Source: a bacterium
GTDB lineage: Bacteria > Zhuqueibacterota > QNDG01 > DSAB01
Reading direction: 5' to 3'
Assembly: GCA_011388275.1 (NCBI GenBank)
Contig: DSAB01000020.1
Coordinates: 1 to 55,956, forward strand
DNA length: 55,956 nucleotides
Both the position numbers and the translations under genes were made by a program. This document shows positions 39,759-52,064 of this stretch, in pieces. Every line of letters begins with the position of its first letter. Position 1 is the stretch's first letter. The notes under the pieces are model-generated. The model saw nothing but the letters and a program-made list of their open reading frames with translations, did no database searches and was not told where the DNA came from.

Positions 39759-42700
39759 ATGGGATGTTATATCGGGACCGATCATACGGGCAGTTCTGGG
39801 AGAAGCCCGGGAGGCGGCGTTTTTATTTCCATGGCCAGTTACTGTCAGGTGGGAGGCGAAGAAGATGATGAGCGCAACGTGATTGCCGGAAACGGGTATT
39901 TCGGAATCACGATCAGTCAGACGGAGCATGTCCGTGTGCTGAACAATTTCATCGGCGTCCGGGCGGATCACGGCGACACGCTCGGCAACGGATATTCCGG
40001 AATCGGAATTCGTGGACGGTTTAATGAGATCGGACCCGGCAATGTTATTTCCGGCAATAAACGGGACGGCATCGAGATCTCCAGTGAGGCCGCGGACAGC
40101 AACCGGGTTTTCGGCAATTTCATCGGCACGGACAGCACCGGAACACGGGCCTGGCCCAACGAAATGAACGGTGTTTTGATCTATCAGGGCGCGGATCACA
40201 ACCGGATCGGGGGTCCGGCCCCGGAAGAGAGAAACCTCATCTCCGGAAACAGACAGCATGGTGTGTATTTCGGAGACACCGGAACGGATTCCAATCAGGT
40301 TTCGGGCAATTATATCGGTACGGACCGGACCGGCACGCTGGCGCTGCCCAATGAATCGGGCGGGATTGCTCTTTTTAACGGGCCCCGCTACAATGTAATC
40401 GGCGGAGACGAGCCGGCCGAAGGAAATCTCATTTCCGGAAACGACGGCAGGGGAATCTGGTTTTGGGGAAGCGGGACCGAAAACAACCGGGTCATGCACA
40501 ATCTGATCGGAACCGACTCGACGGGCGAGGCGCCTCTGCCCAACACGACTTCCGGAATCCATATCACGATGGCGGCGAAAGACAACCTGATCGGGCCCGG
40601 CAATGTCATCGCGTTCAATGAGGACGATGGAATTTACATTACAGGCATGGATTCTCAGGGAAACCGGATCACCCAAAACTCTATTTTTCAAAACGGCTTG
40701 CAGGGCATTCGTCTCCACAATAACGCGCAGAATCAAATGCCCGCTCCGGAAATCACGGGCATCGGATCCGTGTCGGGAACAGCGTCGCCGGAAAGCCGTG
40801 TCGAAATTTTCTGCGGCCCGGATAATCAAGGCAAGGTCTATCAGGGATTTACAACGGCCGATGAATCGGGCGTTTTTTTCTATCCGGGCGCGGTCAGCGG
40901 CCCCTTTATCACAGCCACGGCCACGGATGCAGCGGGGAATACGTCGGAATTCTCCCTGGCCTGGCATAAGGGAGGATTAACAGTGACCACCACGGCCGAT
41001 ACGGGAGAGGGATCGCTGCGGTGGGCCATAGAACGGATGAATCAGTCATACGGCGCGGATACCGTCTTTTTCGAGATTCCGGATACGGATGAAAATTTTA
41101 ACGGTTCGGTATGGACCATCAGACCCCGGACGGCCCTGCCGGCCATTTCGAAAGACCACAAGGTGATCGATGGATTTTCACAGGACGTTTTCGGCGGCAA
41201 CCGGAACAGTCTCGGGCCCGATGTGGTCCTGGACGGCAGTCAGGTCGAAGAGAGCTGTTATTACGGCCTGCTCCTTTACAGCGGTCACAATACGGTCCGG
41301 GGCCTGGTGATCGTCCATTTCAACACCGGTATTGTCGTGAATTACAATTCCGGAGGGTACAATCGGTTTTACGGCAATTACATCGGAATCGCGTCTGACG
41401 GCATGACACCGGCACCCAATGGAACAGGAATCTATATCAGTTCCATGAACCCGGAAAACCGGTTCGGAGGCGCGGCAGCCGGCGAGGGCAATGTGATTTC
41501 GGGAAATCTGTATATTGGAATCTACTGCTTATCCGACAGCAATTATTTCGACGGCAATCACATCGGCGTCACGGCCGATGGAACCGGCCGCGCGGGCAAC
41601 GGGACGCAGGGTCTTTATTTTACGGGCGGATCCAGTCACAACCGGATCGGCCTGGACCGAGGCAATGTGATTTCGGGAAACGGGGCCGCGGGTGTGCATA
41701 TTGCGGACGGCCGTGACAATCATATTGCGGGCAACTTCATCGGACTCAATGCCGCGGGCACGGACACGATTTCGAACCAGTCGGGTGTCTTTTTAAATAA
41801 TGCCTGCCGGAATCGGATCGGAGGTTCCACTGCCGGAGAACGGAACGTGGTTTCCGGAAACCGGCTGGATGGCATCGACTTCGCCAATGCCGACAGCAAC
41901 ACGGTCTCGGGCAATTTTATCGGTTTGAACCCGGCCGGCACGGACACCCTGGGGAACGGCCGGTACGGTCTTTTAATACGGGTGGAATCCAGTTACAACC
42001 GGATCGGGGGCAGCGGGGCCGGTGAGGGCAACCGGATAAGCGGCAATCGATCTTCCGGCATTCGCATTCAGAGTGAGGGAACCGGCCATAACCGGGTCGA
42101 GAACAATCTGATCGGCACGGATGCGGAGGGCCTCGCGCGCTGGGGAAACCGCGGATATGGAGTGATGATAAGTCATTCGGCATGCCATAACCGGATCGGC
42201 CCGGGCAACCGCATCGCCTATCATTTGAATGCCGGTGTCAGAGTGGATTATACAGACAGCAACAGGAACCGCATCACACGAAACGCCATCCATCACAACA
42301 TCGGTAAAGGAATAGAACTTTCGCGGGGAAGCAACAATTTGATGGAAACGCCGGTCATCACCTCCATGGTTCCCCTGCAGGGAACGGCCCCGGCCGGCTC
42401 GTGGATCGAAATCTTTTCCGATTCGACCGATCAGGGGGCCGTGTTCGAAGATTCGGTTCAGACGGATGGGTCCGGTCACTTTACCTGGTCCGGAACGCCG
42501 CAGGGACCGTACGTCACGGCCACGGCCACGGATGCCGACGGCAACACGTCGGAATTTTCCGGTCCGGGTGACACGCCGGTTCGCCTGCTCGAATCGAATC
42601 TGCCGGCGGCTTTCCGGCTGCATCAGAATTATCCCAATCCCTTCAATCCGGAAACCACCATCCGTTTTGACGTGATGCACGCCACGCATGTGTTGATGCG

Positions 42701-42869
42701 GGTATTCAATGTGCTGGGTCAGGAGGTGGCCCGTCCCGTGGACAAATGCATGGAGGCCGGAAGCCATGAAATTCTTTTCCGGTCCGGCGGGCTGGCATCG
42801 GGAATCTACACCCTGCAAGTCGAGATGGGCGAATACCGGGCCCGGCGAAAAATGATTATTCTGGAATAG
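39759..42869 (+). CDS. C-terminal fragment of the beta-helix surface protein
   Basis: The longest ATG-started part downstream of the in-frame TAA, 1036 residues: two beta-helix blocks, the second CSLREAI-like module, two Ig-like modules and the T9SS-type sorting domain. The true reading continues 56 codons upstream to the TAA with family-like sequence, so this ATG is probably not a natural start. It lacks a signal peptide and would not be exported alone. Confidence 0.6.
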   Translation: MGCYIGTDHTGSSGRSPGGGVFISMASYCQVGGEEDDERNVIAGNGYFGITISQTEHVRVLNNFIGVRADHGDTLGNGYSGIGIRGRFNEIGPGNVISGNKRDGIEISSEAADSNRVFGNFIGTDSTGTRAWPNEMNGVLIYQGADHNRIGGPAPEERNLISGNRQHGVYFGDTGTDSNQVSGNYIGTDRTGTLALPNESGGIALFNGPRYNVIGGDEPAEGNLISGNDGRGIWFWGSGTENNRVMHNLIGTDSTGEAPLPNTTSGIHITMAAKDNLIGPGNVIAFNEDDGIYITGMDSQGNRITQNSIFQNGLQGIRLHNNAQNQMPAPEITGIGSVSGTASPESRVEIFCGPDNQGKVYQGFTTADESGVFFYPGAVSGPFITATATDAAGNTSEFSLAWHKGGLTVTTTADTGEGSLRWAIERMNQSYGADTVFFEIPDTDENFNGSVWTIRPRTALPAISKDHKVIDGFSQDVFGGNRNSLGPDVVLDGSQVEESCYYGLLLYSGHNTVRGLVIVHFNTGIVVNYNSGGYNRFYGNYIGIASDGMTPAPNGTGIYISSMNPENRFGGAAAGEGNVISGNLYIGIYCLSDSNYFDGNHIGVTADGTGRAGNGTQGLYFTGGSSHNRIGLDRGNVISGNGAAGVHIADGRDNHIAGNFIGLNAAGTDTISNQSGVFLNNACRNRIGGSTAGERNVVSGNRLDGIDFANADSNTVSGNFIGLNPAGTDTLGNGRYGLLIRVESSYNRIGGSGAGEGNRISGNRSSGIRIQSEGTGHNRVENNLIGTDAEGLARWGNRGYGVMISHSACHNRIGPGNRIAYHLNAGVRVDYTDSNRNRITRNAIHHNIGKGIELSRGSNNLMETPVITSMVPLQGTAPAGSWIEIFSDSTDQGAVFEDSVQTDGSGHFTWSGTPQGPYVTATATDADGNTSEFSGPGDTPVRLLESNLPAAFRLHQNYPNPFNPETTIRFDVMHATHVLMRVFNVLGQEVARPVDKCMEAGSHEILFRSGGLASGIYTLQVEMGEYRARRKMIILE

Positions 42870-43339: not shown

Positions 43340-43364
43340 ATGGCCATGTTTGGAGGAAAGAATC

Positions 43365-44420
43365 ATGAAGAGAACTCTTGTGTGGATTTTGACGGCGGTC
43401 CTGATGATGACCGGTGCGTCCCGGCTGCTGGCCGTGAGTGAATCGGCTGTTCTGTTTCTGCTGATCTCTCCCGGCGCACGGGCCTCCGGTATGGGAGAAG
43501 CGTTTGTGGCCGTGGCCGACGACGCGACTGCTGTTCACTGGAATCCGGCGGGCCTCGCCTTTCAGCGGGGCAATGAAATTATTGTCATGCACTGCAAGTG
43601 GCTGCCCGGACTCGTTGACGACATGTACTATGAATTCGCCTCATACCGGAGATACTTCAAGAGTCTGGGCGGCACACTGGGTGCAAACATCACCTATTTG
43701 AATATGGGTGAACAGGTCTGGATGGATGAATACAATATCGAGCAGGGCCGGTTTACCAGCTATGACTTCGCCGTGTCTCTGAGCTATGCCACCCAGCTGT
43801 CCGACAACATGGGTCTGGGCGTCACCATGCGGTACATTCAAAGCCTGCTGGCCCCCGACTGGGTGCAGGTGGGTGAAGAGAAGGGAAGCGGAAAGGGGAA
43901 CGCCTTTGCCGTGGATCTGGGATTTCTTTATCACAATTTATTCATCAAAGGCCTGTCTCTGGGCGCCAATCTGTCCAATATGGGGCCGAAAATCACCTAT
44001 GTGGACGCGGCCCAGGCCGATCCCATTCCGACCAACCTGAAACTCGGTATTGCCTATAAAATTATGGACACCCAGTACAACCGGCTGACTCTGGCCATCG
44101 ATACCAACAAACTCCTGGTACGGCGGACCGAAGAAGGGGCGGATCCTTTTTACAAGGCCATTTTCACTTCCTGGTCGGACGGTTCCGTACGCGATCAGAT
44201 GAAGCGGCTGATCACATCGGTAGGCACTGAATATGTTTACAACAACATGATATTCCTGAGGGCCGGATATTATTACGATGAAATCGGCAAGGTGAAGTTT
44301 CCCGCATTCGGTGCCGGTCTGCAGTATCACAAGTATCGTTTTGATTTCGCCTATGTGGCGGCCGAACAGGGTCATCCGCTGTCCGACACCATGCGTTTTT
44401 CGCTGTCCATAGGATTTTAA
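43365..44420 (+). CDS. porV: PorV/PorQ-family outer-membrane protein of the type IX secretion system
   Basis: A 351-residue beta-barrel protein. After the signal peptide (cleaved near SRLLAVSE) comes the family signature FLLISPGARASGMGEAFVAV, then DDATAVHWNPAGLAF, then alternating beta strands and a terminal aromatic residue (SLSIGF). PorV is an outer-membrane protein of T9SS that binds the C-terminal domains of cargo and passes them to the attachment machinery. The exact paralogue (PorV or PorQ-like) cannot be decided. GGAGG 8 bases before the ATG at 43365 decides the start. The surrounding genes encode likely T9SS cargo, which supports the role. Confidence 0.85.
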   Translation: MKRTLVWILTAVLMMTGASRLLAVSESAVLFLLISPGARASGMGEAFVAVADDATAVHWNPAGLAFQRGNEIIVMHCKWLPGLVDDMYYEFASYRRYFKSLGGTLGANITYLNMGEQVWMDEYNIEQGRFTSYDFAVSLSYATQLSDNMGLGVTMRYIQSLLAPDWVQVGEEKGSGKGNAFAVDLGFLYHNLFIKGLSLGANLSNMGPKITYVDAAQADPIPTNLKLGIAYKIMDTQYNRLTLAIDTNKLLVRRTEEGADPFYKAIFTSWSDGSVRDQMKRLITSVGTEYVYNNMIFLRAGYYYDEIGKVKFPAFGAGLQYHKYRFDFAYVAAEQGHPLSDTMRFSLSIGF

Positions 44421-44497: not shown

Positions 44498-47400
44498 ATG
44501 ATCAGAGTTCTGAAGGTTGCCGGACTTTTCACATTGCTTATGGGCTTGCGTGTGGTCCGGGCGGAGAGACCCGTTTTTCAATATCGTTCCGGTCATTTTT
44601 CCCGGCGGATGACGCGTACCGCCCCCCTGGAGAAGGGGCGCCACCCGTGGATGTTCGAACGATCCTTTCACGCGGACAAAAACGACTCCATTCACGTGGT
44701 GGCTTTGCGCGCGGAGTTTCAGCCCGATGAAAATCCCCTGACTACAGGGTCCGGCCTTTTCGATCTTTCCGAACCGGCGGAACAACGCGTGGATCCGCCG
44801 CCTCATGACAGGGCCTATTTTGAAGCCCAGATGCGAGCCCTGGCCCATTATTATCGAACCGTATCCCGCCATCGACTGACCGTGACCTTCTCCGTGCCCG
44901 ATCCCGTGCTGCGCCTTCCCGATGAAATGGGCGGATACAATCCCGCCACGGATCCGCAAAGTACGGAGCGGGGACTGGTTCGCCTGTTCCGGGACGCGGT
45001 CAAAGCGGCCGACAGCCTGGGGATCGGGATCACTTCCGGCGACGCGGTGATCGTTTTTCATGCCGGGGTGGGTAAAGATCTGGATCTGGGTTACGATCCC
45101 ACGCCCCGGGACATTCCCTCGGCTTTTCTGGACCTGGAGGATCTTCGAAGCCATCTGGCTGAAGGCGACCCGGGCTATGCAGGCATTCCGGTTCAAGGCG
45201 GTTCCCACCGGGTGCGGGAAGGCATTATTGTACCGGAAACCCAGTCGCAGGAGGGGTATGAAATCGGACTTTTAGGCACCCTGACCCTGATGTTCGGTTT
45301 CCAGCTGGGGCTGCCGGCTCTTTGGGACACGGATACGGGCACGAGCGGAATCGGCCGCTGGGGGCTGATGGATCAGGGATCCAATAATTATTTCGGATTG
45401 ATACCGGCCTGGCCCTGTGCCTGGACGCGGCTGTACATGGGGTGGGATGAAGCCGCAGAGACGGTTTGGGGTGTGGATCTGGCCGTGGCCTGCAGCATGG
45501 CTGAAAGCGCTCAGCGCATCATTCGGGTTCCAATCAATGATCACGAGTATTTCCTGGTGGAAAACCGGCAGTATGACGTGAACGGGGACGGCATTACCCG
45601 GGGATGGGACGCGGCCGGCGTTGAGGTCACGTTCCATCCGGACGGAAGACTGGTGTCTTCGGTTCCTTTCGGAGTGATCACGCGGGTGGAGGAGTATGAT
45701 TACGGACTTCCCGGATCGGGTATTCTGATATGGCATATCGACGAGGATGTAATTTCACGGAAGCTGCCTGAAAACCGGATCAACAGCGACCGGGAACATC
45801 GGGGCGTGGATCTGGAAGAGGCCGACGGCGCCAAAGATATCGGATACCGGTACGGGCTGACCGACCCGGGTGCGGGCGCGGAACTGGGCGTGCTGCATGA
45901 CGCCTGGTTCGCCTCGAATGAGGTGCATAAGCGGGTCAACCGGAGCGACAGCGTGGCTTTTACTCCGGCAACCTATCCCAGAACCGCATCCAACTCGGGT
46001 GCGGATTCCCATCTCCATCTCACCCGGTTTTCCGAGCGGGATACGATCATGTCTTTTCAGGTTCGAAATGAATGGATACGTTCCGGTTTCCCCCGTGATT
46101 TCGGTCTCGGGCATGTGCCCTTTTCACCCCTCATGGCCGATATAAACGGCAGCGGCATCCGTGAAGTGGTGGTCGTGACCCGGGGGGGCATGATTTTCGC
46201 ATGGGACGAATCAGGGCATCCCCTGGTGAACAATGGAGCATTGGGTCGAACTGTGAACGTGGCTGGAGACACCGTCGACATTCCCGCAGCTCTTTTGGCT
46301 GTAACCGGATCTTCTGTGGTGACGGAACCCGCGGCCGCGGATCTGAACGGAGACGGATTCGATGAAATCGTTACAGCCACAGCGGATGGACAGTTGACAG
46401 GCTGGACGGCGCGTGACGAAGACGGAGACGGATTCGGTGACAGGGTGTTTCAGTGGCAGAGTTCCCAGGACAGCATTACCGCCCTGCTTTTGTATCCGGC
46501 CGCCGGCGGCTATTATCCGGTTCTGGGCACGGCCTCGGGAGAACTGATATTTCTCGACCCGGCTGCCGGAATACCCCTCTGGACCCAAAACCTCGGCGCG
46601 GCCGTAAGCGGACTGTGCATGGGAGTCTCCGGCGGACTGCGTATCCTTTGGGCCGGAACGTCCGCGGGAAGTTTGTTTTGTTACAACGGAATCACCGGAG
46701 AACGGCTTTGGAATGAATCGGTCGGATCCCGTCCTTTATGGCCTCCGGCTGCGGGATTGTGGCCGGAAACGGGTGCGGGTGTGGCGGTCTGTTATGAAGG
46801 CGGAGGGGCCGTGTTCGACATTCAGGGAAACCGGATCGGAACCCTGACGCATTCCGTGATTCCCGCGGGCCGTCCGGCTTTGGGCGATGTGGACGGAGAC
46901 GGGGTGCCGGAAGTGGTTCTGCCCGGCAGGGACAGACTCTGGGCGTTCAACCACAACGGCAGCCTGTGCAGCGAATTTCCGGTGCCCCGATTGAGCTGGG
47001 ATACGCCTCCCTCGTCCCCGATTTTAATCGATGCCGACGGGAACGGAGACTTGAATATTGTGGCTGCCACGCAAGGGGGAGAGGTGTCGGCTTTCAGCCG
47101 TAGAGAGAGGGTATCCGGATTTCCCCTGAGTACGGGGAGTGAAACCACGCTGACTCCCTTTGCCGGTGATCTGGATGGCGACGGTCTTCTCGAGCTGGCC
47201 GCTGTTTCCGGGCGCGGCAGTGTGTTTGTCTGGAACCTGAATGCCGATGTTTCTGAAACGGCATCCTGGGCGGCATGGGGTAAAGATGCGGCCCGGACCG
47301 CTTTTTTCGCTCAGCCGTCCGAGCCCGCCGCGCCGCGTGAAGACTGGATGCCTTCCCGGGGAGTCTACAATTATCCCAACCCCGTGCGTGACGGCCGAAC

Positions 47401-47626
47401 GTTCATCCGTTATCGCCTGGAGGTGGACGCCCGGGTTGCCATCCGCATTGTCGATATGGCCGGCATGCTCGTTCAGCGTCTGGAAGGGCCGGGGCGGGGT
47501 CAGACGGAGAATGAAGTGATCTGGGATGTTTCGCGTGTGGACAGCGGGGTCTATTTCTGTCATGTCCGGGCTGTCTCGGCGAAGGGGGAGAAACAGGCCG
47601 TGATTAAAATAGCCGTAATCCGATAG
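44498..47626 (+). CDS. M6-like metalloprotease homologue lacking active-site residues, with FG-GAP repeats and T9SS-type sorting domain
   Basis: An exported 1042-residue protein. Signal peptide (1-about 21), then a domain that follows M6 peptidases closely (VPETQSQEGYEIGLLGTLTL, SGIGRWGLMDQGS, SGILIWHIDED). Where M6 enzymes have HEFGHQLGLPD, this protein has LMFGFQLGLPA (264-274). Both metal-binding His, the catalytic Glu and the third ligand are replaced, so it should not be catalytic. Residues about 540-930 contain several FG-GAP/VCBS-like blades (AAADLNGDGFDEIVTATADG, LGDVDGDGVPEVVLPGRD and others). The C-terminus is a T9SS type A-like domain (YNYPNPVRDG). GAGGTG precedes the ATG. Probably a surface-binding protein. 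Confidence 0.85.
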   Translation: MIRVLKVAGLFTLLMGLRVVRAERPVFQYRSGHFSRRMTRTAPLEKGRHPWMFERSFHADKNDSIHVVALRAEFQPDENPLTTGSGLFDLSEPAEQRVDPPPHDRAYFEAQMRALAHYYRTVSRHRLTVTFSVPDPVLRLPDEMGGYNPATDPQSTERGLVRLFRDAVKAADSLGIGITSGDAVIVFHAGVGKDLDLGYDPTPRDIPSAFLDLEDLRSHLAEGDPGYAGIPVQGGSHRVREGIIVPETQSQEGYEIGLLGTLTLMFGFQLGLPALWDTDTGTSGIGRWGLMDQGSNNYFGLIPAWPCAWTRLYMGWDEAAETVWGVDLAVACSMAESAQRIIRVPINDHEYFLVENRQYDVNGDGITRGWDAAGVEVTFHPDGRLVSSVPFGVITRVEEYDYGLPGSGILIWHIDEDVISRKLPENRINSDREHRGVDLEEADGAKDIGYRYGLTDPGAGAELGVLHDAWFASNEVHKRVNRSDSVAFTPATYPRTASNSGADSHLHLTRFSERDTIMSFQVRNEWIRSGFPRDFGLGHVPFSPLMADINGSGIREVVVVTRGGMIFAWDESGHPLVNNGALGRTVNVAGDTVDIPAALLAVTGSSVVTEPAAADLNGDGFDEIVTATADGQLTGWTARDEDGDGFGDRVFQWQSSQDSITALLLYPAAGGYYPVLGTASGELIFLDPAAGIPLWTQNLGAAVSGLCMGVSGGLRILWAGTSAGSLFCYNGITGERLWNESVGSRPLWPPAAGLWPETGAGVAVCYEGGGAVFDIQGNRIGTLTHSVIPAGRPALGDVDGDGVPEVVLPGRDRLWAFNHNGSLCSEFPVPRLSWDTPPSSPILIDADGNGDLNIVAATQGGEVSAFSRRERVSGFPLSTGSETTLTPFAGDLDGDGLLELAAVSGRGSVFVWNLNADVSETASWAAWGKDAARTAFFAQPSEPAAPREDWMPSRGVYNYPNPVRDGRTFIRYRLEVDARVAIRIVDMAGMLVQRLEGPGRGQTENEVIWDVSRVDSGVYFCHVRAVSAKGEKQAVIKIAVIR

Positions 47627-47633
47627 ACAATAT

Positions 47634-50537
47634 ATGATCAAACGTTTGCTGACAGGGTTCGCCGTTTTGACCACAGCCGCTTCGTGGGTGTGGTCCCAGA
47701 GTCTTTACAATCATCCTGAATTGGAATGGATGACACTGGAGACCGGGCATTTTTACGTGCATTATCATGCGGGAGCCGAACGAACGGCCCGCGTCACCGC
47801 GTCCGTCGCCGAATCCATTTACGAACCGGTCACCCGGCTTTATGATTACGAACCGGACACGAAAATACACTTTGTGATTCGGGATCATGACGATCAGTCC
47901 AACGGAGCGGCTTTTTATTATGACAACAAAATCGAACTGTGGGCGCCGGCCATGGACTTCGCGCTGCGCGGCACGCATCACTGGCTGTTGAACGTGATCA
48001 CCCATGAGTTCAGCCACATGATCTCCATGGGAGCCGCCCGCAAGGCGCCGCGTCAGATTCCCGCCGTGTATCTGCAGTGGCTGGATTATGAGAAGGAAAA
48101 ACGGCCCGATGTGATCCACGGGTATCCACGTACGCTGGTTTCTCTTCCGCTGGCCGGAACCGTCATGCCGGTTTGGTTCGCCGAAGGCATGGCCCAGTAT
48201 CATGCTCGCGGTGTGCATCATGACACCTGGGATTCCCACCGTGACATGCTCCTGCGCACGGCTGTGCGGGAGAAGGCGCTTCTGCCGCCGCACGAGATGT
48301 CCCGTTTCGGTAAAACCAGCCTGGGCAATGAACGGGTGTACAATCAGGGTTACGCGTTGACTCTGTATCTGGTTGACCGCTTCGGAGAGTCTGTGCTTCC
48401 CAGGCTGGTCGAAGCTCTCAGGCCGCTGAACCGGATTCGGTTTACGGCGGCCCTGGAGAGTGTGACGGGATTGAGTGAGGCGGAACTTTACCGCCAATGG
48501 GTTCAATGGCTGGAAAACGGTTATGAGCAGTCAGGCGAATCCTGGACGGAGGGTGAGATTCTGGAATCCGCCGGAGAAGCCAATTTTTTCCCGGTTTTTT
48601 CTCCGGACGGGCGGTACCTGGCCTATGTGTCCAGCCGTGGCAGGGATTATATGAGTCAGAGCTCCGTGTGGATTTTTGACCGGCGTGAAGGGAAAGCCCG
48701 CAAGACGATCTCCCGTGTGACCTCTCCGGCCGGCTGGTCGCCCGATGGAAAGCACCTGGTCTATTCCAGCAACCGGGACCGCGGCAGACACGGTTCGCGG
48801 TACCATGATCTTTATGTTTACAACCTGGAAACCCGCAAGGAGAAGCGTCTGACCCGCGATTTGAGGGCGCATTCACCGGCGTGGGGCCCCGGCGGAATGC
48901 TGGCCTGTATCATTGAAAACGACGGGACGTCCAATCTTTTTCTTTTGAACACGGAGGGAGACTCGCTTCGGTCTCTGACCGCTTTCAAGGCCGGCGAGCA
49001 GCTGTTTGCGCCGCGCTGGATGAGTGATTCGACTCTGGTGTTTACGATCGGGGGTGCGTTTCAAGGCCGGGATATCGCCATGATTCATATTTCCGGCGGG
49101 CAATGGGAGTACCTGTTAAAAACCGCGCATGATGAGCGGGATGCGGTTCCCGGACTCGATGGAGAGTGTGTCTATTACAGTTCCGATGCTACGGGCGCGT
49201 TCAACATTTACCGGCTCCATCTGCCAACCGGAGAGCGGCATCAGCTGACCCATGTGCCGGGAGGCGCCTTCATGCCCGCAGTCAGGGGCGATACGCTCTG
49301 CTATGCTCTTTTTACGGCGGATGGCTACCGCATCGCGAAACGGGAAGGATTGAGTCCTCTGTCCGCCCGGACCGTGACCAGCCCCTATTTTCGCATCAAG
49401 CCCGAAAAGAGGCCGATCGATATCGCTGTTGACACCTCTTTGACTGCGAAGCCCTATCAGCCGGTGTTCTCGAAACTGGCTTTTCTGCCGCGGATCATGA
49501 TGGATTATCCTCAAAAACTGAAACTGGGAACGTATTTTTATGGAAGCGATTTTCTCGACCGGATCTCTGTTCTCGGCGGGGCGGCCGCCAATTTCGGCGG
49601 GGACATGGATCTTTTCGGCATTTTCGAATATCGGCGATGGAGGCCCACCCTGTTTGTCGAGGCTTACCATCAGACACGGCATTTTCGTCAGGATGATGTC
49701 GATTACCGGTTCAACCTGATGGAAGTCGACGCGGGCGCGGACTGGCGACTGGGAGACAACAATGTGCTGCGCACAGCGGCCATCTTCAGCCGATACAGCG
49801 CGGGCATGCGCTTTACGGATCAGGGACTGGATTTCAAGTTTTCATATATCTATCATCTGGGCACTGTTTTACAGGCCCGCTGGAACCATCGGGCCATTCG
49901 GGGCGCTTTGAATGCCGATATCGCGCCCTCAAGCGGCCGCATAATGACACTGGATATTCAGGCGGCATGGCAGCGGTTCCTCAGAGACTTCAAGATTCAT
50001 CAGGATTTTGGAACTCTGGTGGAGGTTTATGAACCCTATCATTACTGGCAGCTGCTGATGGACTGGACCGAATATGTGCCGTCACCGGTTTCGGGCCACA
50101 GCCTTGCCATACGGGTCAAGGGAGGATGGATCGACCGGCGCGTGGAAGGGTTCTATCATCTGTTCGGCGGCGGCCTGGACGGCATGAAGGGATATCCCTA
50201 TTACAGCCTGGAAGGCCGGAATCTGATTCATCTGGGGCTGGCCTACCGCATGCCCCTTTTCAGGCGCATGCGCTTGCGTCTGGGATTTATGGATCTGGAA
50301 AAACTCTATGTGTCGGTGTACGGAGATGCCGGCAATGCCTGGTCCGGAGGGTCTTTCCCGGGCTGGAAGCGCGATGTGGGTGTTCAGCTTCGTCTGTCCA
50401 TGCTCAATTTTTACGCCTATCCCATGAAAGTTTTCTTTGACGCGGCCTACGGTCTGGATGAATTCGTTACGCGTAAACAGACGTACGGAAGGGAGTGGCG
50501 CTTTTATTTCGGGATGCTGTTTGATTTTCTCAGGTAG
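47634..50537 (+). CDS. HEFSH metallopeptidase - TolB-like propeller - outer-membrane barrel fusion
   Basis: A 967-residue exported protein with three parts. After a signal peptide (to about 21) comes a gluzincin-like peptidase domain with the zinc motif HEFSH at 124-128 and a further Glu at 184 in WFAEGMAQY. Next is a TolB/PD40-type propeller (about 305-590; FSPDGRYLAYVSSRGRD, WSPDGKHLVYSSNRD). The C-terminal third (about 610-967) is beta-rich, like an Omp85-type surface-antigen barrel, ending in FYFGMLFDFLR. I infer an outer-membrane-anchored protease whose protease and propeller parts sit in the periplasm or outside. It begins 7 bases after the M6-like gene; no clear ribosome site, so coupling is likely. 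Confidence 0.82.
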   Translation: MIKRLLTGFAVLTTAASWVWSQSLYNHPELEWMTLETGHFYVHYHAGAERTARVTASVAESIYEPVTRLYDYEPDTKIHFVIRDHDDQSNGAAFYYDNKIELWAPAMDFALRGTHHWLLNVITHEFSHMISMGAARKAPRQIPAVYLQWLDYEKEKRPDVIHGYPRTLVSLPLAGTVMPVWFAEGMAQYHARGVHHDTWDSHRDMLLRTAVREKALLPPHEMSRFGKTSLGNERVYNQGYALTLYLVDRFGESVLPRLVEALRPLNRIRFTAALESVTGLSEAELYRQWVQWLENGYEQSGESWTEGEILESAGEANFFPVFSPDGRYLAYVSSRGRDYMSQSSVWIFDRREGKARKTISRVTSPAGWSPDGKHLVYSSNRDRGRHGSRYHDLYVYNLETRKEKRLTRDLRAHSPAWGPGGMLACIIENDGTSNLFLLNTEGDSLRSLTAFKAGEQLFAPRWMSDSTLVFTIGGAFQGRDIAMIHISGGQWEYLLKTAHDERDAVPGLDGECVYYSSDATGAFNIYRLHLPTGERHQLTHVPGGAFMPAVRGDTLCYALFTADGYRIAKREGLSPLSARTVTSPYFRIKPEKRPIDIAVDTSLTAKPYQPVFSKLAFLPRIMMDYPQKLKLGTYFYGSDFLDRISVLGGAAANFGGDMDLFGIFEYRRWRPTLFVEAYHQTRHFRQDDVDYRFNLMEVDAGADWRLGDNNVLRTAAIFSRYSAGMRFTDQGLDFKFSYIYHLGTVLQARWNHRAIRGALNADIAPSSGRIMTLDIQAAWQRFLRDFKIHQDFGTLVEVYEPYHYWQLLMDWTEYVPSPVSGHSLAIRVKGGWIDRRVEGFYHLFGGGLDGMKGYPYYSLEGRNLIHLGLAYRMPLFRRMRLRLGFMDLEKLYVSVYGDAGNAWSGGSFPGWKRDVGVQLRLSMLNFYAYPMKVFFDAAYGLDEFVTRKQTYGREWRFYFGMLFDFLR

Positions 50538-50573
50538 CTGTCACCAGGAATGGGACCGCAAGGAGGAACCGTT

Positions 50574-51326
50574 ATGTTTCCCTGGATACTGGTCATCATG
50601 AATCTTGGATTCGGTGCCGCGGATCAGGTCGCGGCGCCTTATTTGCCGCCTTCAGCGGCTTTTCAGACAGAGTTGCGGTGGGGTAAACCCGGCCCGGCAT
50701 CGTTCGGTCAGCTGGCTGATCCTTCGGCCCGGATTCCGGTTCGAACCAAGTCCGCTGCACTGGGCATTCTGATGTCCGCCGCGGTTCCCGGAACCGGAGA
50801 GATCTATGCCGGTTCATGGATAAAGGGGGCGGTTTTTCTGGGTGTGGAAGCGGCTCTGTGGGTTGGGTACTTTTCGTTCAGTGCGCATGGACGTGACTGG
50901 GAGGACAAGTTTCATGAGTTTGCGGACACGCATTGGAGTGAGGAGAGATATTATGAATGGCTCGCGGCCAATCCGAACTTTGCCGACACCACGCATTCTC
51001 TGCCTTCCACCAGGACGCAGCAGTATTATGAGATGATCGGAAAGTACGATCAGTTCAAGGCGGGTTGGGATGACTGGGATGAAGGGGATAATCCCTTAAC
51101 ACCGAATCGGGATTATTATGAGGGCCTCAGGCACAAGAGCAATCAGGCTTTTATCCGCGCTTCCTACTGCACCATGGTGGTTTTGGCCAATCATGTGCTT
51201 TCCGCTTTTGATGCGGCCTGGACACTGAACCGGTATAACCGCCGGGTGGAGAGCAAGCTGCGTGTTTCATGGCAGCGCGGTTTGGAACAATGGGTCCCTG
51301 TGCTGTCCCTGGGTGTGGGCTGGTGA
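50574..51326 (+). CDS. DUF5683-like membrane protein (copy 1)
   Basis: A 250-residue protein with a short N-terminal hydrophobic segment and a core ALGILMSAAVPGTGEIYAGS followed by WIKGAVFLGVEAALWVGYF. This is the pattern of DUF5683 proteins, which have a 'PG-x-G-x-x-Y-x-G' loop between two hydrophobic helices. The rest is hydrophilic with one more hydrophobic helix (YCTMVVLANHVLSAFDAAW). GGAGG precedes the ATG at 50574. The next gene is a divergent paralogue. Function unknown; found in FCB bacteria near outer-membrane or secretion genes, from general family knowledge. Confidence 0.78.
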   Translation: MFPWILVIMNLGFGAADQVAAPYLPPSAAFQTELRWGKPGPASFGQLADPSARIPVRTKSAALGILMSAAVPGTGEIYAGSWIKGAVFLGVEAALWVGYFSFSAHGRDWEDKFHEFADTHWSEERYYEWLAANPNFADTTHSLPSTRTQQYYEMIGKYDQFKAGWDDWDEGDNPLTPNRDYYEGLRHKSNQAFIRASYCTMVVLANHVLSAFDAAWTLNRYNRRVESKLRVSWQRGLEQWVPVLSLGVGW

Positions 51327-51371: not shown

Positions 51372-52064
51372 ATGAAGGGTTTAAGACCCCGGATCTGTCT
51401 GCTGACGGTATTTTGCCTGATCTTCGGAACGGCATGGGCTCAATCGATTCCGGCGGAACCTCAGCCGTTTGATGCCGGCTTTCTGACGAAATCCGAATCC
51501 GCACCGTCTCCGGCCAGGGCTTTCTTCTATTCTTTGCTGGTGCCCGGACTGGGTCAGGTTTACGCGGGCGCCGGGACCATGACCCGTGTTTTTGTCGCTT
51601 CCGAGGCCGCGCTCTGGTCTCTTTATTTTACGTTTCGAACCGTTGGAAACTGGAAAGAAGCGGATTACAAACGGTTTGCCGTTCTGCACGCGGGCGTCGA
51701 TCCCGAAGGCAAAGACCGTCGCTATTATGTGAATCTGGAACATTACGACTCCATGGAGGCCTACAATCAAGCCAAACTGAGGCAGCGGAATCTAAACGCC
51801 GTGTATCCTGCGCATGAAGGGTATGAGTGGGAGTGGGACAGCCGCGAGTCGCGTCTTCGGTATGAGAGTTTGCGGGTTTCCAGTGACAAGGCCTTCAACC
51901 GCGCCCTTTTGGTGACAGGTGCCGTGGTTCTGAACCATCTGGCCAGCGCCATAGACGCCGCCCGTGCGGCCCGAAAGGGCCGGATTGAGGAAAACCCCCT
52001 TCACATGGGGGTGATGCCGTTGGCCGAGGGGGGGTGGATGGGTTATGTGGTGAAGGTTTTTTAA
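51372..52064 (+). CDS. DUF5683-like membrane protein (copy 2)
   Basis: A 230-residue paralogue of the preceding protein: signal peptide (cleaved near GTAWAQS), then ARAFFYSLLVPGLGQVYAGA and FVASEAALWSLYF in place of the matching segments of copy 1, and a late hydrophobic helix (ALLVTGAVVLNHLASAIDAA). Copies 1 and 2 match in the paired-helix core and in this C-terminal helix, so they arose by duplication. It starts 45 bases after copy 1. No enzymatic motif is seen. Confidence 0.78.
   Translation: MKGLRPRICLLTVFCLIFGTAWAQSIPAEPQPFDAGFLTKSESAPSPARAFFYSLLVPGLGQVYAGAGTMTRVFVASEAALWSLYFTFRTVGNWKEADYKRFAVLHAGVDPEGKDRRYYVNLEHYDSMEAYNQAKLRQRNLNAVYPAHEGYEWEWDSRESRLRYESLRVSSDKAFNRALLVTGAVVLNHLASAIDAARAARKGRIEENPLHMGVMPLAEGGWMGYVVKVF

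Follow-up and report, generated by a model that had tools for sequence, protein, structure and literature searches.

The m6i locus and its product

The gene m6i lies at positions 44498..47626 of the window (the whole 55,956-nucleotide stretch of contig DSAB01000020.1 that was analysed), on the forward strand, as do the protein features and conserved neighbours described below, and its open frame, starting with ATG, encodes a 1042 aa T9SS-type inactivated homologue of M6 metalloproteases, M6i (NF052323 E 2.4e-173). A hydrophobic helix at residues 2-16 of the structure model indicates a probable Sec signal peptide (residues 1-22, 44498..44563), which is followed by a pseudo-M6 peptidase domain (residues about 59-526, 44672..46075; delimited by the AF2 domain model, Foldseek and homologues), a beta-propeller of the FG-GAP/PQQ-like type (residues about 530-930, 46085..47287; PF13517 and PF13360, as well as the model and PDB propeller matches) and a T9SS type A C-terminal sorting domain (CTD; residues 955-1042, 47360..47623) exceeding the cut-offs of both PF18962 (29.1 bits, cut-off 27) and TIGR04183 (26 bits, cut-off 23). 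A homologue from the same family shares 47% identity with M6i (47 rows aligned).

As the Foldseek search with the full-length model was dominated by propellers, it was rerun with the AF2 model of the pseudo-M6 domain alone (mean pLDDT 95.3), for which the best PDB match was Bacillus InhA2 (4yu6, E 7.5e-15), four InhA2 chains (4yu5/4yu6) being the only matches at E<0.001. The Pfam M6 model itself remains below its threshold (9.6 vs a cut-off of 22), and the M6 assignment thus rests on the profile, the fold and the homologues. The domain fold is shared with peptidase family M6 (placed in MA(M); PMC3890501) and its immune inhibitor A, whereas M6i has neither the zinc ligands nor the catalytic Glu and ends in different C-terminal domains, namely, the propeller and the T9SS CTD.

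Directly upstream lies porV, encoding the outer-membrane shuttle of the T9SS (43350..44420; NF033710 252.9 bits, cut-off 250; NF033709 320 bits), and this arrangement recurs in 105/108 readable distinct loci with a dead M6i (locus L128 being counted as dead). Directly downstream, a gene at 47634..50537 combines, according to its domain matches, a Peptidase_MA domain with an intact HEFSH, a TolB/PD40 propeller and a probable outer-membrane barrel (an Omp85 match was seen in its relative L181); it follows m6i in 85 of the 88 readable loci, HExxH is intact in all 89 of 89 homologues, and the protein looks active. The next gene, at 50550..51326, encodes a 258 aa protein devoid of Pfam matches, and its homologues occupy the corresponding position wherever the flank of a locus is long enough. 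Further along, a DUF5683-like domain is encoded at 51372-52064, and the Rhodohalobacter locus (L180) has such a domain next to it as well. Upstream of porV, at 39759-42869, lies a gene whose product, a surface protein, has a right-handed beta-helix and a T9SS type A CTD; the place of this gene is not conserved.

The lost zinc site

The former zinc-binding helix, located by both the homologue and the PDB profile alignments, reads LMFGFQLGLPA (residues 264-274, 45287..45319) instead of the expected HExxHxxGxxD. The PDB profile search aligned it to the InhA2 helix (4yu5, HAFGHDLGLPDEYDT, a sequence in which the catalytic Glu is already Ala), with L264, M265, F268 and A274 falling on the His, Glu, His and Asp positions, respectively; the zinc pocket was judged via alignment and secondary structure. 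About 109 distinct homologues have a broken catalytic His-Glu-His set, and chance can be excluded as the source of the changed motif, since the same positions are non-catalytic in all of these. The claim of the sequence-only reading that the ligands and the Glu of this helix have been replaced is, therefore, borne out by the InhA2 alignment and the homologues alike, and a scan over the entire M6i chain found no other HExxH or HxxxH, which that reading had named as what would refute it.

Every member of the main clade has the dead motif, and the residues that fill the four catalytic/ligand positions vary within the family, being hydrophobic, small or polar. The third-ligand Asp is retained in the Ignavibacteria and Bacteroidota-type members (e.g., GSHLGLPD), whereas it is also gone in the Neomarinimicrobiota and “KSB1-type” members, the latter being those of the window's own phylum, which is of the type of candidate division KSB1. 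Two residues of the old zinc helix, G267 and P273, as well as Met291 (45368..45370), are invariant in the 46 aligned sequences despite the missing zinc ligands, and Met291 is presumably the residue of the metzincin Met-turn. The retained fold and this methionine are what might be cited in favour of M6i still being a hydrolase that employs an alternative metal or catalytic site, a notion rendered very improbable by the chain having no HExxH/HxxxH and by all four of the catalytic/ligand positions being both changed and variable across the family.

Constraint on the inactivated domain

Mean pairwise identity within the phylum amounts to 53% for the pseudo-M6 domain, 51% for the CTD and only 27% for the propeller, the least conserved part of M6i, and rises to 69% for residues 245-320 around the former zinc helix. 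The dN/dS of the M6 domain is 0.033-0.105 in close pairs of dead members, comparable to that of an intact pair (0.055), and is lower than the dN/dS of the propeller in the pairs measurable for both, except for two with close values or saturated dS. The low dN/dS, the high identity and the invariance of G267, P273 and M291 indicate that the scaffold of the active site has been conserved despite the lost chemistry. That M6i is a maintained pseudoenzyme and not a product of decay, as had been proposed from the single sequence, thus gains firm ground from the family-wide loss, the intact frames across phyla and the M6 dN/dS values. Decay or a sequencing error, for which nothing speaks beyond the departure from the consensus, is effectively refuted by the intact frames, by the low dN/dS and by about 109 distinct homologues that show the same loss.

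Family identity and distribution

By far the best match of M6i is NF052323.1 (T9SSA_dep_M6i, “T9SS-dependent M6-like inactivated metalloprotease”; 578.7 bits, E 2.4e-173), with which it shares full-length homology, an M6-like domain without HExxH and a type A CTD. The curated cut-off of that family (600 bits) is not reached, so that, by NCBI's rule, the window protein does not receive the name automatically; 26 of the 82 genomes of the phylum, including relatives from the same order and the same family, do exceed it, and the members above the cut-off occupy the same position beside porV as the window gene, as orthologues would. The Rhodohalobacter-type members differ in scoring up to 1454 and in keeping the third-ligand Asp that has been lost from the window protein. 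The pseudoenzyme family is, hence, already named in NCBIfam and the pseudoenzyme itself is not new; what is new here is its genomic context, and a search of the open-licence literature for an M6 pseudoprotease of the T9SS found nothing.

M6i is matched in 82/82 genomes of the window's phylum at E<=0.001 (nearly all of the matches are strong, with fragmentary or weak ones in a few assemblies), in 38/41 Neomarinimicrobiota and in 94 of the 248 sampled Bacteroidota genomes, many of the searched genomes being incomplete metagenome assemblies. At E<=1e-30, no Bacteroidota genome has more than one locus, double matches being pieces of one frame. Intact M6 homologues were found in 5/81 Gemmatimonadota genomes.

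Phylogeny and the direction of the change

For 83 M6 domains, a tree computed after removal of the four motif columns and rooted on generic active M6 proteins united the dead family (74 rows) in a single clade (bootstrap 93, SH-aLRT 93), the sister of which is an intact Eisenbacteria protein (L112, HEFGHQLGLPD; 99/90). Further out are intact Gemmatimonadota proteins and a separately inactivated second Eisenbacteria copy (CHMTGR), and parsimony explains the catalytic residues with no fewer than two changes. A single loss that would include this second copy (L055/L056) was rejected by the AU test (p 0.0165, for a group chosen post hoc and having long branches). This apparently independent inactivation (CHMTGR) is seen beside a PorV-family gene at L175:6262-9579, in an Eisenbacteria genome that also retains an intact copy (L176). 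Two seeming exceptions to the loss did not hold: L057 is not an intact orthologue but an active paralogue, as the same genome has a dead M6i (L106), and L128, flagged as active by a regular expression, has its HEMAH elsewhere in the domain and is dead at the motif position.

The intact Gemmatimonadota/Eisenbacteria homologues (L108, L112, L122-L125) share with M6i the M6 domain, a T9SS genome and, where flanks could be read, a PorV-family neighbour (as well as a CTD above the cut-off in L176), and differ in keeping HExxHxxGxxD and in their position outside the dead clade. Proteins of the same architecture with an intact HExxH, named in the sequence-only reading as what would speak against a pseudoenzyme, are thus literally present, yet, falling outside the dead clade, they show the direction of the change and do not refute it. 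In Eisenbacteria L176, the order is porU (547 bits, cut-off 420), a PorV-family gene and an intact M6 gene with a CTD, while the Gemmatimonadota homologues and the second Eisenbacteria copy have the PorV-family gene, where detected, immediately downstream. The M6/PorV pairing is, therefore, probably older than the inactivation, and, given that intact homologues are found only outside the dead clade and that the Eisenbacteria order is porU-porV-M6, catalysis was probably lost within an already existing T9SS operon. Together with the tree, the intact homologues beside PorV offer an ordered example of how a protease turns into a pseudoenzyme within a secretion operon.

Association with the type IX secretion system

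The order porU-porV-m6i is seen in 77 of the 82 Bacteroidota genomes with listed positions, porU preceding m6i by 1.2-1.75 kb on the same strand, a gap sized for porV. Within the phylum of the window, porU lies elsewhere and not beside porV-m6i; in the window's genome, PorU (G000, C14:25292-28471) and PorZ (C2:20596-22734) are encoded separately from M6i, and, since the genome thus already has both families, M6i as a substitute for either was rejected. PorU accompanies M6i in 87/94 Bacteroidota genomes (Fisher p 2e-13), a p-value that ignores phylogeny; the neighbourhood and co-occurrence counts come from related genomes and are, hence, not independent trials. Another 76 PorU-positive Bacteroidota genomes of the sample lack M6i, which makes it a lineage-specific part and not a universal one of the T9SS.

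SprA was found in 16/16 of the M6- or M6i-bearing genomes tested, including seven Bacteroidota genomes (G086, G231, G251, G278, G289, G341 and G373) that have M6i and for which no PorU was found, even at E 1e-20. One of the seven is Rhodohalobacter halophilus, in which porV-m6i-MA is intact (L180) and the gene preceding porV encodes a thiolase. As these genomes keep SprA and M6i without PorU, M6i seems to be tied to PorV and translocation and not to sortase attachment, and the seven represent a natural separation of the two processes. M6i is, then, linked to core T9SS genes and co-occurs with the translocon, and its linkage to the T9SS is well supported.

A proposed role for M6i

The most probable reading (roughly 0.6) is that M6i is a PorV-associated, surface-exposed accessory subunit of the T9SS that uses its dead protease groove for binding. 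Export would be by Sec at the inner membrane and by the T9SS at the outer membrane, the latter step relying on the type A CTD that M6i itself carries. M6i would then remain on the cell surface together with the shuttle PorV, the product of the neighbouring gene, and the dead M6 domain might serve there as a non-cutting peptide- or protein-binding platform holding substrates or partners as they exit the SprA-PorV translocon. What is observed in favour of a T9SS subunit is the loss of HExxH on an M6 fold, the CTD, the constraint, the porV linkage (with porU-porV-m6i in Bacteroidota) and the co-occurrence with SprA, whereas the export via SprA, the stay with PorV and the holding by the groove are suggested by shuttle-partner gene pairs and by analogy with the biology of PorU, PorZ and PorV. 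Docked at the lateral opening of SprA, PorV binds the CTD of the cargo and carries the cargo out (PMC10994853); PorU and PorZ, themselves CTD-bearing T9SS components, are surface subunits forming the attachment complex with PorV and PorQ, and the CTD of PorZ stays uncleaved (PMC8545088). M6i would share with these two the export by its own CTD and the status of a T9SS component, as well as the propeller in the case of PorZ (PMC8545088) and the gene neighbourhood in the case of Bacteroidota porU, and differs from both in its main domain. Counting against a subunit are the separation of porU from porV-m6i in the window's own phylum, the fact that a CTD also marks ordinary cargo (a comparison of CTDs of retained subunits with those of cleaved cargo did not discriminate between the two) and the consideration that neighbourhood and co-occurrence are no proof of physical contact.

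If M6i were instead an ordinary T9SS cargo, i.e., a binding or scaffold protein exposed at the surface and serving some purpose other than secretion (e.g., nutrient or surface binding), its porV linkage would reflect mere co-expression. The type A CTD and the variable FG-GAP/PQQ propeller, as found in many surface binding proteins, fit such a role, which nevertheless appears unlikely given the match in every genome of the phylum, the porV linkage across phyla, an M6 domain more conserved than the propeller and the absence of any comparable conservation of place for the beta-helix cargo gene upstream of porV. Of the initial suggestion that M6i has become a surface binding or scaffold protein, the export to the surface thus stands on account of the CTD, whereas a general adhesin or scaffold gives way to a T9SS component because of the single-copy near-universality, the linkage to porV (and to porU in Bacteroidota) and the far better conservation of the M6 domain.

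Alternatively, M6i might be the partner or regulator of the Peptidase_MA/TolB-propeller/outer-membrane-barrel protein encoded downstream, that is, a pseudoenzyme steering another metalloprotease. Pseudopeptidases can regulate active relatives (PMC11266112), and both the constancy of this neighbour and its retained HExxH are in line with the idea, yet no Peptidase_MA gene was found beside the Gemmatimonadota/Eisenbacteria homologues, whereas PorV-family neighbours are present there, and the predicted compartments differ (the surface for M6i by virtue of its CTD, probably the periplasm for the MA domain), which leaves such a partnership quite improbable.

A more far-reaching version of the T9SS subunit reading, which is offered tentatively and given somewhat less than even odds, regards M6i as an unrecognised PorV-bound subunit in the non-classical T9SS lineages, namely, KSB1-type bacteria, Neomarinimicrobiota, Ignavibacteria and Rhodohalobacter-type Bacteroidota, descended from an active M6 protease of a porU-porV operon (perhaps an original processor of exported cargo) that was retained after the loss of its zinc as a PorU-independent, substrate-holding part. 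Most work on the T9SS has concerned Porphyromonas and Flavobacterium, and, should M6i be a working part elsewhere, the parts list of this system would be incomplete for several phyla.

Genes for type B shuttles are frequently neighbours of the gene for the cognate CTD partner (PMC12618676). In the window's genome, two PorV-family paralogues (L003:459-1505 and L005:211-1491) each adjoin a gene for another CTD-bearing protein, and shuttles resembling PorV apparently go together with CTD partners of their own.
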